This document shows, in pieces, positions 1-3,403 of a stretch of 5,557 nt of DNA (its first letter is position 1; every line of letters begins with the position of its first letter). This DNA comes from an uncultured Chromatiaceae bacterium. Lineage in GTDB: Bacteria > Pseudomonadota > Gammaproteobacteria > Enterobacterales > Alteromonadaceae. Location: assembly GCA_946482615.1 (NCBI GenBank), contig CAMLSF010000216.1, positions 1-5,557 of the forward strand, given 5' to 3'. A program made the translations under genes and the position numbers. The notes beneath the pieces were generated by a model. That model was not told where the DNA came from. It searched no databases and saw only the letters and a list, made by a program, of their open reading frames with translations.

Positions 1-72
1 TGGATGCTACTGGGTTCGCACCAGTCCGCCTTGGTCTTTTGTAAAGAGTGCGATGGTTTTTTATCGAAGTGA
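1..72 (-). pseudogene. Degenerate tRNA-Val-like 3' segment, copy 1 (cut by window edge)
   Basis: Read on the minus strand, this segment ends in an acceptor-like 3' strand AGCATCC plus discriminator A, identical to the tRNA-Val genes nearby; its CCA would lie just off the window. The T-arm is damaged: the loop reads TGCGAAC instead of TTCGAAC, which breaks the conserved TTCGA. Upstream in the transcript is an anticodon-like CTTTACAAAAG core and an ATCGC stretch, but no 5' acceptor strand (GGATGCT) and no normal D arm, so it cannot fold as a cloverleaf. It is a 75-bp near-duplicate of the next copy. It could be a tRNA pseudogene or a functional spacer RNA; the sequence does not decide. Confidence 0.7.
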
Positions 73-79
73 TGGTGGA

Positions 80-151
80 TGGTGGATGCTACTGGGTTCG
101 AACCAGTCCGCCTTGGTCTTTTGTAAAGAGTGCGATGGTTTTTTATCGAAG
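80..151 (-). pseudogene. Degenerate tRNA-Val-like 3' segment, copy 2
   Basis: This lies directly downstream, in transcription order, of the tRNA-Val gene at 155-230. It retains an intact T-arm (ACTGG, loop TTCGAAC, CCAGT), the acceptor 3' strand AGCATCC, the discriminator A and CCA. The region that should form the anticodon arm reads CTCTTTACAAAAG, and the 5' half of a tRNA is replaced by an unrelated AT-rich stretch (ACTTCGATAAAAAACC). There is no 5' acceptor strand, so it is a 3'-half tRNA mimic. It probably lies in the same precursor transcript as the real tRNAs, where its CCA end may be recognised by 3'-processing enzymes (inference). Confidence 0.72.
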
Positions 152-154
152 TGA

Positions 155-230
155 TGGTGGATGCTACTGGGTTCGAACCAGTGACCCCCGCCTTGTAAGG
201 GCGATGCTCTCCCAGCTGAGCTAAGCATCC
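155..230 (-). tRNA. tRNA-Val (anticodon UAC), gene A
   Basis: A complete 76-nt tRNA on the minus strand with encoded CCA at 155-157. The acceptor stem pairs GGATGCT (224-230) with AGCATCC (159-165), with discriminator A. The D arm has GCTC/GAGC, the anticodon loop is CTTACAA (anticodon TAC, valine), and the T-arm is ACTGG with loop TTCGAAC and CCAGT. The sequence is identical to gene C (516-591). It is the fourth and most promoter-distal intact tRNA visible in the operon, and is followed by two degenerate tRNA-like copies. Confidence 0.98.
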
Positions 231-253
231 TGGGAATTTAGTACTGAAAACTA

Positions 254-320
254 TGGTGGACGCTACTGGGTTTAATCCAGTCACAGCCTGTTCTTTATAA
301 AGTGCGGCGATGCGCTCTTT
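254..320 (-). pseudogene. Degenerate tRNA-Val-like 3' segment, copy 3
   Basis: This lies just downstream, in transcription order, of tRNA gene B. It carries CCA (254-256), discriminator A, and acceptor 3' strand AGCGTCC, the same C-G acceptor variant as tRNA B rather than the AGCATCC of the other genes. A T-arm stem ACTGG/CCAGT survives, but the loop is ATTAAAC and has lost TTCGA. The anticodon-like core is CTTTATAAAG. A GCGCATCGCC stretch matches the D-arm/anticodon junction of the real tRNA, but the 5' acceptor strand and 5' D arm are absent. The shared acceptor variant suggests that tRNA and tail evolved or duplicated as one unit. Confidence 0.75.
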
Positions 321-327
321 AAGAAGA

Positions 328-403
328 TGGTGGACGCTACTGGGTTCGAACCAGTGACCCCCGCCTTGTAAGGGCGATGCTCTCCCAGCTGAGCTAAGCG
401 TCC
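328..403 (-). tRNA. tRNA-Val (anticodon UAC), gene B, acceptor-stem variant
   Basis: A complete 76-nt minus-strand tRNA with encoded CCA at 328-330. It is identical to genes A and C except for a compensated change in the acceptor stem: GGACGCT (397-403) pairs with AGCGTCC (332-338), so the 4-69 pair is C-G instead of T-A. The anticodon loop is CTTACAA (TAC, valine). Because both sides of the pair changed together, the gene is clearly under selection and functional. It is preceded by CCCA at the mature 5' end, as are genes A and C. Confidence 0.98.
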
Positions 404-441
404 TGGGACTATTCATTGTTACACCTGGGCATCTAAGAAGA

Positions 442-507
442 TGGTGGATGCTACTGGGAACAAACCAGCCGCAGCCTCTTCTTTGTAAAGGGTGGCGATG
501 CACTCTT
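442..507 (-). pseudogene. Degenerate tRNA-Val-like 3' segment, copy 4
   Basis: This lies just downstream, in transcription order, of tRNA gene C. It shows CCA (442-444), discriminator A, acceptor 3' strand AGCATCC and a T-arm-like stem GCTGG/CCAGT whose loop TTTGTTC has lost TTCGA. Further upstream in the transcript are CCCTTTACAAAG, which resembles the anticodon loop with TAC preserved, and GTGCATCGCC, matching the D-arm/anticodon junction. No 5' acceptor strand is present. It aligns well with copy 3 (254-320), so these two form one subfamily and copies 1-2 another. Confidence 0.75.
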
Positions 508-515
508 TAAATAGA

Positions 516-591
516 TGGTGGATGCTACTGGGTTCGAACCAGTGACCCCCGCCTTGTAAGGGCGATGCTCTCCCAGCTGAGCTAAGCATCC
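516..591 (-). tRNA. tRNA-Val (anticodon UAC), gene C
   Basis: A complete 76-nt minus-strand tRNA with encoded CCA at 516-518. The acceptor stem is GGATGCT (585-591) with AGCATCC (520-526), the anticodon loop CTTACAA gives anticodon TAC (valine), and the T-loop is TTCGAAC. It is identical to gene A. It is second in the operon, separated from gene D by a 57-nt spacer that contains no tRNA-like remnant. Confidence 0.98.
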
Positions 592-648
592 TGGGCATAA
601 CAACATGACTACAACGATTTAATCATCTCTTGGAGAATTTCAAAAAGA

Positions 649-724
649 TGGTGGATGCTACTGGGATCGAACCAGTGACCCCCGCCTTGTAAGGGCGATG
701 CTCTCCCGGCTGAGCTAAGCATCC
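649..724 (-). tRNA. tRNA-Val (anticodon UAC), gene D, promoter-proximal
   Basis: A complete 76-nt minus-strand tRNA with encoded CCA at 649-651. The acceptor stem is GGATGCT (718-724) with AGCATCC (653-659), and the anticodon is TAC (valine). It differs from genes A and C at two loop positions: D-loop T17 is C, and T-loop position 59 is T (loop TTCGATC). Neither affects a stem. It is the first gene of the operon, about 10 nt from the predicted transcription start, and lacks the CCCA 5' flank seen before the other three. Confidence 0.98.
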
Positions 725-742: not shown

Positions 743-770
743 ATTATAGGGGGCTCGGTTTTTGTGTCAA
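743..770 (-). promoter_or_regulatory. Strong sigma70 promoter of the tRNA-Val operon
   Basis: On the minus strand, a perfect -35 TTGACA (765-770) and a perfect -10 TATAAT (743-748) are separated by 16 bp. Upstream of the -35, 771-786 is AT-rich (AAAGCTAAAAATATTA) and resembles an UP element. Downstream of the -10 the discriminator GACGGCC is GC-rich. In stable-RNA promoters of gammaproteobacteria such GC-rich discriminators go with ppGpp/DksA control, so stringent and growth-rate regulation is inferred. The start is predicted near 734-736, about 10 nt before tRNA gene D. Confidence 0.9.
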
Positions 771-2501: not shown

Positions 2502-3281
2502 ATGCGTTTAGTAGTCGCATTGTCAGCGGTGCTGTTGTGTTCAGCAGTCTCTGTTCAGGCACAGGAGTTTCAGAAAAAACACGGTGAAGAAGAAACCACT
2601 ATTCCGCCCTGGGCTGGTGATGTTGAGGTGGGTGTAGTGCTCAGTCGCGGTAACACCGAAGCCACTGCTGTGCGGACCAACGCTGAATTAAAACACGAGC
2701 TGGAAGATTTCCGTAACAAGTACTTTATCCAGACCTTGTTACAACGTAATACCCAAACCAACAGCGCTACGGGTGAAAAAGAAGACAACACCACAGGTCA
2801 GCGGGTTGGGGTTACAGCACAAAGTAACTATAAGTTTTTCCGCTCAGACAGCAGCTTGTTCGGCCGTGCCGCTTATTTAAATGACCGTTTTGGTGCTTTC
2901 CGTGAACAATCTTCTGTGGCTGTGGGTTATGCCAACAGGTTGTATGAAAATGGTCAGAACTACTTAGACTTCGAAACAGGTCCGGGTATGGCGTATGACA
3001 GACCATCCGAAGGCGAAAGTAACTCAGGTATGATTTGGTATGCCGCTGGTAACTTTGAGTATCACTTCTCTGAAACCAGTAAGTTCAAACAAACTCTGGA
3101 ATACGCTATTTCATTAGATGGTCATAACACCAGCTACACCAGCCGTAGTGCTATCACAGCTCAAATCAATAACGAGCTGGCTTTGCGTTTAAGTCTGAAT
3201 ATTAAGTACGACTCAGATGTAGGTGTGGATAAGAAAAGCACAGACTCAGAAACCGCAGCTTCAATCGTCTATTCGTTCTAA
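2502..3281 (+). CDS. DUF481/YdiY-family outer-membrane beta-barrel protein
   Basis: A 259-residue exported protein of the DUF481 family, which includes E. coli YdiY, often annotated as a putative salt-induced outer-membrane protein. Its molecular function is not established. Residues 1-20 form a Sec signal peptide with a hydrophobic core and probable cleavage after VQA (20). After a short charged/Pro linker (25-38), the family-type start GDVEVGVVLSRGNTEA (39-54) is followed by alternating polar/hydrophobic strands rich in Tyr, Phe, Asn and Ser. The protein ends in IVYSF; a terminal Phe with alternating hydrophobics is the usual signal for BAM-assisted barrel insertion. Cys13 is not in a lipobox (preceded by LL), so it is not a lipoprotein. 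The start is supported by AAGAAGG (2485-2491) upstream of ATG. It is separated from gltX by a terminator and converges on serA. Confidence 0.88.
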   Translation: MRLVVALSAVLLCSAVSVQAQEFQKKHGEEETTIPPWAGDVEVGVVLSRGNTEATAVRTNAELKHELEDFRNKYFIQTLLQRNTQTNSATGEKEDNTTGQRVGVTAQSNYKFFRSDSSLFGRAAYLNDRFGAFREQSSVAVGYANRLYENGQNYLDFETGPGMAYDRPSEGESNSGMIWYAAGNFEYHFSETSKFKQTLEYAISLDGHNTSYTSRSAITAQINNELALRLSLNIKYDSDVGVDKKSTDSETAASIVYSF

Positions 3282-3283
3282 CC

Positions 3284-3309
3284 AGTGTCAGAGCCTTGGC
3301 TCTGACACT
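3284..3309. repeat. REP-like palindrome 1 (12-bp perfect stem)
   Basis: AGTGTCAGAGCC (3284-3295) and GGCTCTGACACT (3298-3309) form a perfect 12-bp inverted repeat around TT, starting two bases after the stop of the DUF481 gene. There is no T-run on either side, so it is not a classic intrinsic terminator, although it could mark or protect the mRNA 3' end. It shares the TCAGAGCC...GCTCTGA core with the palindrome at 3380-3403. Confidence 0.85.
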
Positions 3310-3379: not shown

Positions 3380-3403
3380 GGGTCAGAGCCTAAGCTCTGA
3401 CCC
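3380..3403. repeat. REP-like palindrome 2 (10-bp perfect stem)
   Basis: GGGTCAGAGC (3380-3389) and GCTCTGACCC (3394-3403) form a perfect 10-bp inverted repeat with loop CTAA, eight bases beyond the serA stop. It has the same TCAGAGC/GCTCTGA core as the palindrome at 3284-3309, with different outer bases (GGG/CCC instead of AGTG/CACT). There is no downstream T-tract on the minus strand, so a terminator role for serA is possible but not typical. Confidence 0.85.

Follow-up and report, generated by a model that had tools for sequence, protein, structure and literature searches.

The stretch of DNA analysed here (5,557 nt, referred to in full as the window) carries an array of four minus-strand tRNA-Val(tac) genes, which were identified with both ARAGORN and cmscan and are preceded by a predicted sigma-70 promoter (Table 1). 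About one chance site is expected in the promoter scan at a lower threshold; the array promoter is a full match in both hexamers. The first two genes are separated by a plain spacer, while inner segments A and B, each resembling the 3′ half of a tRNA, lie between the following genes, and tail segments C and D trail the last one. The window is Rheinheimera-like, its GltX being 97% identical to that of R. faecalis YR1 and three other records. Three of the four window proteins could be named (GltX, phosphoglycerate dehydrogenase, and RpiA), all of them housekeeping proteins, and the fourth is unnamed. This fourth protein (259 aa, 2502–3281) had no NCBIfam match at E ≤ 1e−10 and, judged by eye, has a secreted or outer-membrane look with a signal peptide. 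Two short palindromes seen by eye (3285–3308 and 3380–3403, based on GTCAGAGCC/GGCTCTGAC) sit between its gene and that of phosphoglycerate dehydrogenase and resemble terminator or REP-like hairpins. Furthermore, a 167-aa reading frame lies on the minus strand (503–3) and is open at the window edge.

Table 1. Promoter, tRNA genes, spacer, and segments of the tRNA-Val array, in order of transcription.
Feature	Position	Strand	Basis or remark
Predicted sigma-70 promoter TTGACA-16-TATAAT ahead of the array	743..770	−	12/12 hexamer positions match
tRNA-Val(UAC), first	649..724	−	ARAGORN, cmscan, 65.5 bits
Plain spacer of 57 nt without segment, after first tRNA-Val	592..648	−	sequence
tRNA-Val(UAC), second	516..591	−	ARAGORN, cmscan
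Inner segment A	442..515	−	predicted hairpin 1 515–480, hairpin 2 476–446, CCA 444–442
tRNA-Val(UAC), third	328..403	−	ARAGORN; acceptor pair C4-G69 replaces U4-A69
Inner segment B	254..327	−	predicted hairpin 1 327–292, hairpin 2 288–258, CCA 256–254
tRNA-Val(UAC), fourth	155..230	−	ARAGORN, cmscan
Tail segment C, weakly structured	80..154	−	predicted fold, z −0.7 to −0.9
Tail segment D, tandem copy of C	1..72	−	window edge falls before its CCA

The initial annotation described three of the four tRNA-Val genes as each followed by a 3′-half segment and a fourth segment as a duplicate of the last. Both observations were confirmed. Within the window segments, which are units of 72–75 nt, the 3′ 20-mer of the own tRNA was found again at 18, 19, and 20 of 20 positions. 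In the shuffle control with 20 shuffles per spacer, comprising the window and its relatives, a best match of at least 15/20 was reached in none of the 126 inner and in two of the 61 last tRNA-Val spacers. Segments C and D are near-identical (99% over 81 nt in register). The 5′ acceptor strand, said to be missing throughout, is absent from all window segments, but this side is not always lost in relatives, as a tail copy of locus L017 keeps a degenerate 5′ half. Sequence comparison also revealed that the window segments share one body; the argument that random decay should not spare the same 3′ part in every copy is therefore weak on its own, since the copies are not independent witnesses. In segment B, the acceptor allele is AGCGTCC, as in the third tRNA-Val, and the tail segments of locus L002 carry the C4-G69-type 3′ allele of that tRNA, which none of the four L002 tRNA-Val genes shown has. 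This allele sharing points to conversion between the segments and the 3′ ends of the tRNAs, and recombination within the array, as put forward earlier, is plausible.

Folding predictions for unmodified, protein-free RNA gave two hairpins for the inner segments. In hairpin 1, a tRNA-derived strand (GAGAGC or GAGCGC) is paired with GCUCUUU or CGCACUUU, the latter including the TTTACAA core. TTTACAA/TTTATAA had been read as an anticodon-like core; instead, it is the predicted 3′ strand of this hairpin, with the partner AAAGAG.GC just upstream and compensatory changes, one of which is a U-A to C-G double change between segments A and B. Hairpin 2 is a lengthened T-arm, in which the kept acceptor strand is predicted to pair with a new strand that lies immediately 5′ of the T-stem (GGCTGCG, GGCTGTG in segments A/B) and substitutes for the true 5′ acceptor strand. 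Such pairing of the kept 3′ end with a new strand was predicted in A, B, and other inner relatives and is mostly absent in tail copies. The fold of segment A, which has orthologues in loci L001, L003, and L004, reached a z of −1.6 to −1.8, and that of segment B about −2.9. In L008, hairpin 2 is less regular, and its partner strand pairs with UCCACC, thus including part of the CCA. The CCA end was also predicted to be partly paired in segments of L005, L012, and L015, and the median fraction of unpaired CCA was 0.73 for inner and 0.99 for tail copies. We also considered whether hairpin 2 is a natural minihelix of acceptor and T-arm whose CCA stays free, that is, a minimal RNase P substrate. This reading is unsupported as a general feature and was dropped because the CCA end is part-paired in the four loci named and because exchanging acceptor strands among inner segments across clades failed to favor the own strand (−3.42 versus −3.54 kcal mol−1 for own and swapped strands; own better than the mean swap in 13/22). 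The latter failure arises because the hiding strand pairs in different registers.

Among the 80 fetched gltX loci and the window, 66 loci hold tRNA-Val, of which, judged by a 12-mer criterion, 31 contain one or more segments and 35 contain none. The 31 loci comprise 88 segment rows, including the doubtful L043 (a 20-nt stretch) and L056 (1089 nt from the last tRNA) as well as a duplicated end in the window, an artefact that was scored as a segment of its own, whereas the copy at the window edge was left uncounted. By a 20-mer criterion, 20 of the 126 inner tRNA-Val spacers and 22 of the 61 last ones contain a copy, compared to 2/79 for tRNA-Glu, 0/42 for tRNA-Ala, 0/2 for tRNA-Leu, and 1/7 for tRNA-Asp (an N-run artefact). 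The units of Rheinheimera and Alishewanella are mostly 73–87 nt long, with some longer ones, and form tandem series interleaved with intact tRNAs. Presence and copy number differ between close relatives; in L002, the window-type segment lies behind the last tRNA only, with 10 tandem copies.

We searched 20 genomes with a covariance model of inner-type segments, scoring up to 150 first-look candidates in each. The matches above 43.9 bits, the score of a plain tRNA-Val, lie on contigs with tRNA-Val arrays, and weaker matches include tRNA-Lys arrays. In a family survey, at least 16 of 295 genomes matched at E ≤ 3e−7, which is a lower bound from 15 candidates per genome and strict filters (genome G014 with the segment-bearing locus L016 was missed). 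Nearly all loci fetched in the model survey carry tRNA-Val, while L100, a short piece, shows no tRNA. The link of the matches to tRNA-Val loci argues against a dispersed element. In a literature search, we recognised nothing on segments in valine tRNA arrays. Integrases often target and duplicate tRNA 3′ halves, and this preference would fit attachment-site scars, in which the body of an integrated island or phage was deleted and only a tRNA 3′ end remained. However, the size range, tandem order, and interleaving of the Rheinheimera and Alishewanella units, the housekeeping nature of the three named window proteins, and the conserved and structured inner body make this origin very improbable.

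The rtT-like layout proposed in the initial annotation is borne out by E. coli K-12, where the Rfam RtT model matched between the two tRNA-Tyr genes tyrT and tyrV and, in the stretch examined, also at two places behind tyrV. The rtT/RttR element (RF00391) thus shows the same alternation of tRNA and repeat with trailing copies as the window. Like the Val units, an RtT unit ends in the 3′ end of the neighbouring tRNA with CCA (that of segment D falling outside the window), and in the RtT consensus the kept 3′ end is paired with a new strand (GGGGAAGG with CCUUCCCC), as is also predicted for segments A and B, although the strand exchange across clades does not support it. In the same test, the own strand was best in 5 of 17 RtT units. 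However, the Val units have a near-normal T-loop size and an extra upstream hairpin, and their tail copies are mostly unstructured, whereas the RtT-type units examined are 143–185 nt long with several hairpins inserted at the place of the T-loop. The suggested independence from RtT also agrees with the Rfam model: cmscan of the window at E ≤ 1 returned the four tRNAs and one chance TCV_H4 match but no RtT, and the Val loci L017, L008, L024, L049, and L167 gave no RtT at E ≤ 0.1. In addition, A. jeotgali has both, with Val segments and a true RtT behind tRNA-Tyr (L161, 57.1 bits at a gathering cut-off of 45).

RtT matches at E ≤ 1e−3 were obtained in at least 66 of 369 gammaproteobacterial genomes, at least 24 of them above the cut-off, both numbers being lower bounds from 8 candidates scored per genome. 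In 18 of 24 RtT loci (the four best and 20 hand-picked, mostly tandem ones), a neighbouring tRNA-Gln, Ser, Arg, or Tyr is trailed by a copy of its 3′ end, based on matches of at least 13/16. By eye, several of 15 RtT-type units (from among L239–L258) hold an inverted T-arm copy near their start, which amounts to a large foldback. A study on Actinobacillus pleuropneumoniae reports RtT-family RNAs with Northern signals beside tRNA-Asn and tRNA-Lys and describes RtT as released from tRNA transcripts (PMC4986893), and in another work, rtT-like elements are linked to BIMEs (PMC2965389). The tRNA-Other of Bacillus cereus is also tRNA-derived and was proposed to form a structural element within a regulatory RNA; in contrast to the repeated 3′-half array within a tRNA operon, it is a single pseudo-tRNA at a genomic island (PMC3399842).

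Against this background, the segments could be rtT-like functional RNAs, that is, stable CCA-ended small RNAs acting in trans as a sponge, as a decoy for tRNA-end enzymes, or as a modulator of the stringent response. The leuZ 3′ external transcribed spacer sponge is likewise a by-product of tRNA precursor processing; unlike the Val segments, it is not known to derive from a tRNA 3′ half. While the shared layout, the Northern signals of the RtT family in A. pleuropneumoniae, the tRNA-specific ends of the RtT-type units behind tRNA-Gln, Ser, Arg, and Tyr, and the slow evolution of the segment core described below are in favor of such RNAs, the window has no match to the RtT model and tail copies mostly lack structure. 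Moreover, the partly paired CCA predicted in several inner relatives is a poor fit to a CCA-end decoy, and presence and copy number vary among close relatives. We therefore consider a role in trans possible but rather doubtful.

Constraint on the segments was assessed from paired changes and from divergence. Among nine inner-type sequences, a set that includes one tail copy (L005), five pairs of hairpin 1 were changed on both sides compared to 0–2 in slid controls, and 86% of the cells pair compared to 35–52%; the counted structure came from single-sequence folds, which biases the slid control in its favor. Letter shuffles reached the observed six both-side pairs of both helices in 19 of 500 cases. 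For the six window-clade segments, pair counts were no higher than in shuffles. Because the two clades align badly, RNAalifold gave a consensus of hairpin 2 alone (7 pairs) from 16 inner-type segments and none at all from 40 segments. Divergence was compared in 12 loci, of which 62 of 66 pairs have a gltX 4-fold identity below 0.7 (mean 0.43). In these 62 pairs, a 24-nt core without tRNA counterpart reached a mean identity of 0.73, the spacer behind the segment 0.55, and shuffles 0.45, with the best-matching segment pair chosen per locus pair. The core identity exceeded the spacer identity in 60 of the 62 pairs, which share branches and are hence not independent counts.

These data bear on the view that the segments are neutral pseudogene debris, whose apparent conservation would stem from young age and from gene conversion with tRNAs and with each other. 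Debris would account for acceptor alleles that track the host tRNA, such as AGCGTCC in segment B, for tail copies that look unconstrained in folding, and for the tandem expansion in L002. However, the core is alike between species with strongly diverged 4-fold sites and, being absent from the tRNA, cannot owe its conservation to conversion with it. The compensatory pairs of hairpin 1 and a self-folding beyond shuffles, seen in inner copies only, further weaken this explanation for the inner copies, and overall we regard it as unlikely. According to the initial annotation, segment-free relatives with intact tRNA arrays, or drift at neutral rates with no RNA product, would leave only simple debris: segment-free loci were indeed frequent, as counted above, but the core diverges more slowly than the adjacent spacer. 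Hence, inner copies are constrained beyond the adjoining spacer, whereas tail copies look unconstrained in folding, and the earlier interpretation as a whole is partly supported.

In Rheinheimera and Alishewanella, a z of −2 or lower was obtained for 13 of 15 inner but only 2 of 32 tail segments; in the other groups, this applied to 1/3 inner and 0/26 tail segments. These counts omit duplicates, rows containing N, rows outside 60–150 nt, and the window artefact. Segment-free spacers reached this value in 6 of 23 cases. The kept acceptor 7-mer was unpaired with a median of 0.37 in inner (22) and 0.73 in tail copies (51 rows, one of which is the window artefact and another a chance row of L092). 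Invasion was expressed as the predicted pairing between this acceptor strand and the 5′ strand of the tRNA that follows, with the segment and the first 48 nt of that tRNA folded together. For inner segments, it was 0.25 compared to 0.78 after shuffling of the body with the last 20 nt kept, and the actual value was lower in 21 of 22 cases. When tail segments of the same genome were placed at the inner position, invasion rose to 0.67, the inner segment being lower in 13 of 16 comparisons. With one common context per genome, inner segments gave 0.30 versus 0.77 for shuffled bodies (lower in 20/22), while tail segments gave 0.71 versus 0.70 (lower in 11/44; two rows were dropped and five had no context).

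Not all loci follow this pattern. Inner relatives in L102 (0.997) and L012 (0.989) are uninsulated, and those in L093 (0.72), L007 (0.70), L092 (0.63), and one L017 copy (0.47) are weakly insulated. Further exceptions are the tail copy of L005, which keeps the fold (z −5.0), and the inner orthologue of segment A in L001, whose fold is mostly lost (z −0.9). In contrast, five distinct tail copies of L002 have a z of only −0.45 to −1.2, compared to −3.1 and −3.4 for the inner orthologues in L003/L004, and tail copies of L007 and L017 with inner-like bodies fold weakly as well (z −1.15 and −1.5). Position is in part confounded with lineage, and branches are shared among the loci. The dependence on position is best described as a tendency of the predicted folds.

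From these predictions, we conclude that the inner 3′-half copies of this Rheinheimera-like bacterium probably evolved a self-folding that spares the folding of the next tRNA. The repeats would descend from a shared truncated ancestor, a copy of the tRNA-Val 3′ end without the 5′ acceptor strand, and would spread and turn over by unequal recombination and gene conversion. They would be transcribed together with the tRNAs from the one strong promoter and then removed during precursor processing. As the kept acceptor 3′ strand is complementary to the 5′ strand of the next nascent tRNA, it could invade the latter, and this risk would be the reason why inner copies evolved new partner strands, which may conceal the kept tRNA strands within two local hairpins and thereby make these copies folding insulators. 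Behind the last tRNA, copies would be free of this need, and most of them lack the fold. Thus, the repeat may be tolerated where it is harmless and reshaped where it is harmful, with misfolding as the presumed target of selection. To this full account, rtT-like repeats spread by array recombination with inner copies constrained as folding insulators, we give an even chance. However, the predicted native fold of the next tRNA is often lower with the segment than without it; insulation therefore fails to explain why segments are kept at all. Their persistence could stem from a small-RNA role or from recombination pressure alone.

If the insulator account is correct, rtT-like repeats, whose role is unsettled, would gain a rule by which the position in the operon decides on the need to fold, and tRNA operon spacers would be selectable against mispairing with the next tRNA. 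Copies of tRNA 3′ ends extend beyond valine. Among 381 tRNAs examined in six Alteromonadales genomes, 43 have a copy of the own 3′ end (at least 15/20 positions) behind them. The fetched tRNA clusters of the individual genomes gave 7/65, 6/63, 10/64, 9/70, 7/46, and 5/79, where the Colwellia row counts one six-tRNA locus twice and the corrected 9/58 was used in the total; some tRNA matches, mainly single-gene loci, lie outside these clusters. Copies of the 5′ 20-mer numbered 2, 1, 1, 10, 1, and 3 in the same genomes, and one shuffle per spacer gave none in all six. Shewanella departs from the 3′ bias, as several copies retain the 5′ side too, with inserts in loops. The isotypes with 3′ copies are Val, Glu, Met, Tyr, Pro, Phe, His, Lys, Asn, Gln, Leu, Ser, Gly, Asp, and Arg. 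Hence, rtT would be no curiosity of tyrT but part of a range of tRNA-specific 3′-end repeats behind many isotypes. As a tentative generalisation, to which we give clearly less than an even chance, Alteromonadales and other gammaproteobacteria would share a general set of mostly unnamed tRNA 3′-end repeats with RtT as one member. These would obey one position rule, with self-folding shielding the nascent 5′ strand of the following tRNA, and operon spacers would be shaped by the co-transcriptional folding of their neighbours.

Copies of 3′ ends behind the parent tRNA, for many isotypes, were seen in loci L149, L151, L161, and L164 of A. jeotgali, in L181, L184, L194, and L197, and within L199–L214, L219–L237, and L265–L304; short loop inserts are frequent. 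The inserts in tRNA-derived segments of isotypes other than Val appeared enriched in CTCT[CT] (8/32; shuffle mean 1.2, maximum 7 in 2000 shuffles), a motif picked after looking at the inserts and a lead only; a hand-picked count of 10 of 18 is biased and was set aside. In two held-out genomes, it occurred in 2 of 10 inserts (shuffle mean 0.34, p 0.04), both in tRNA-Met. Examples of inserts are found in L164 (Pro), L204 (Asn), L151 and L197 (Met), and L184 (Asp).
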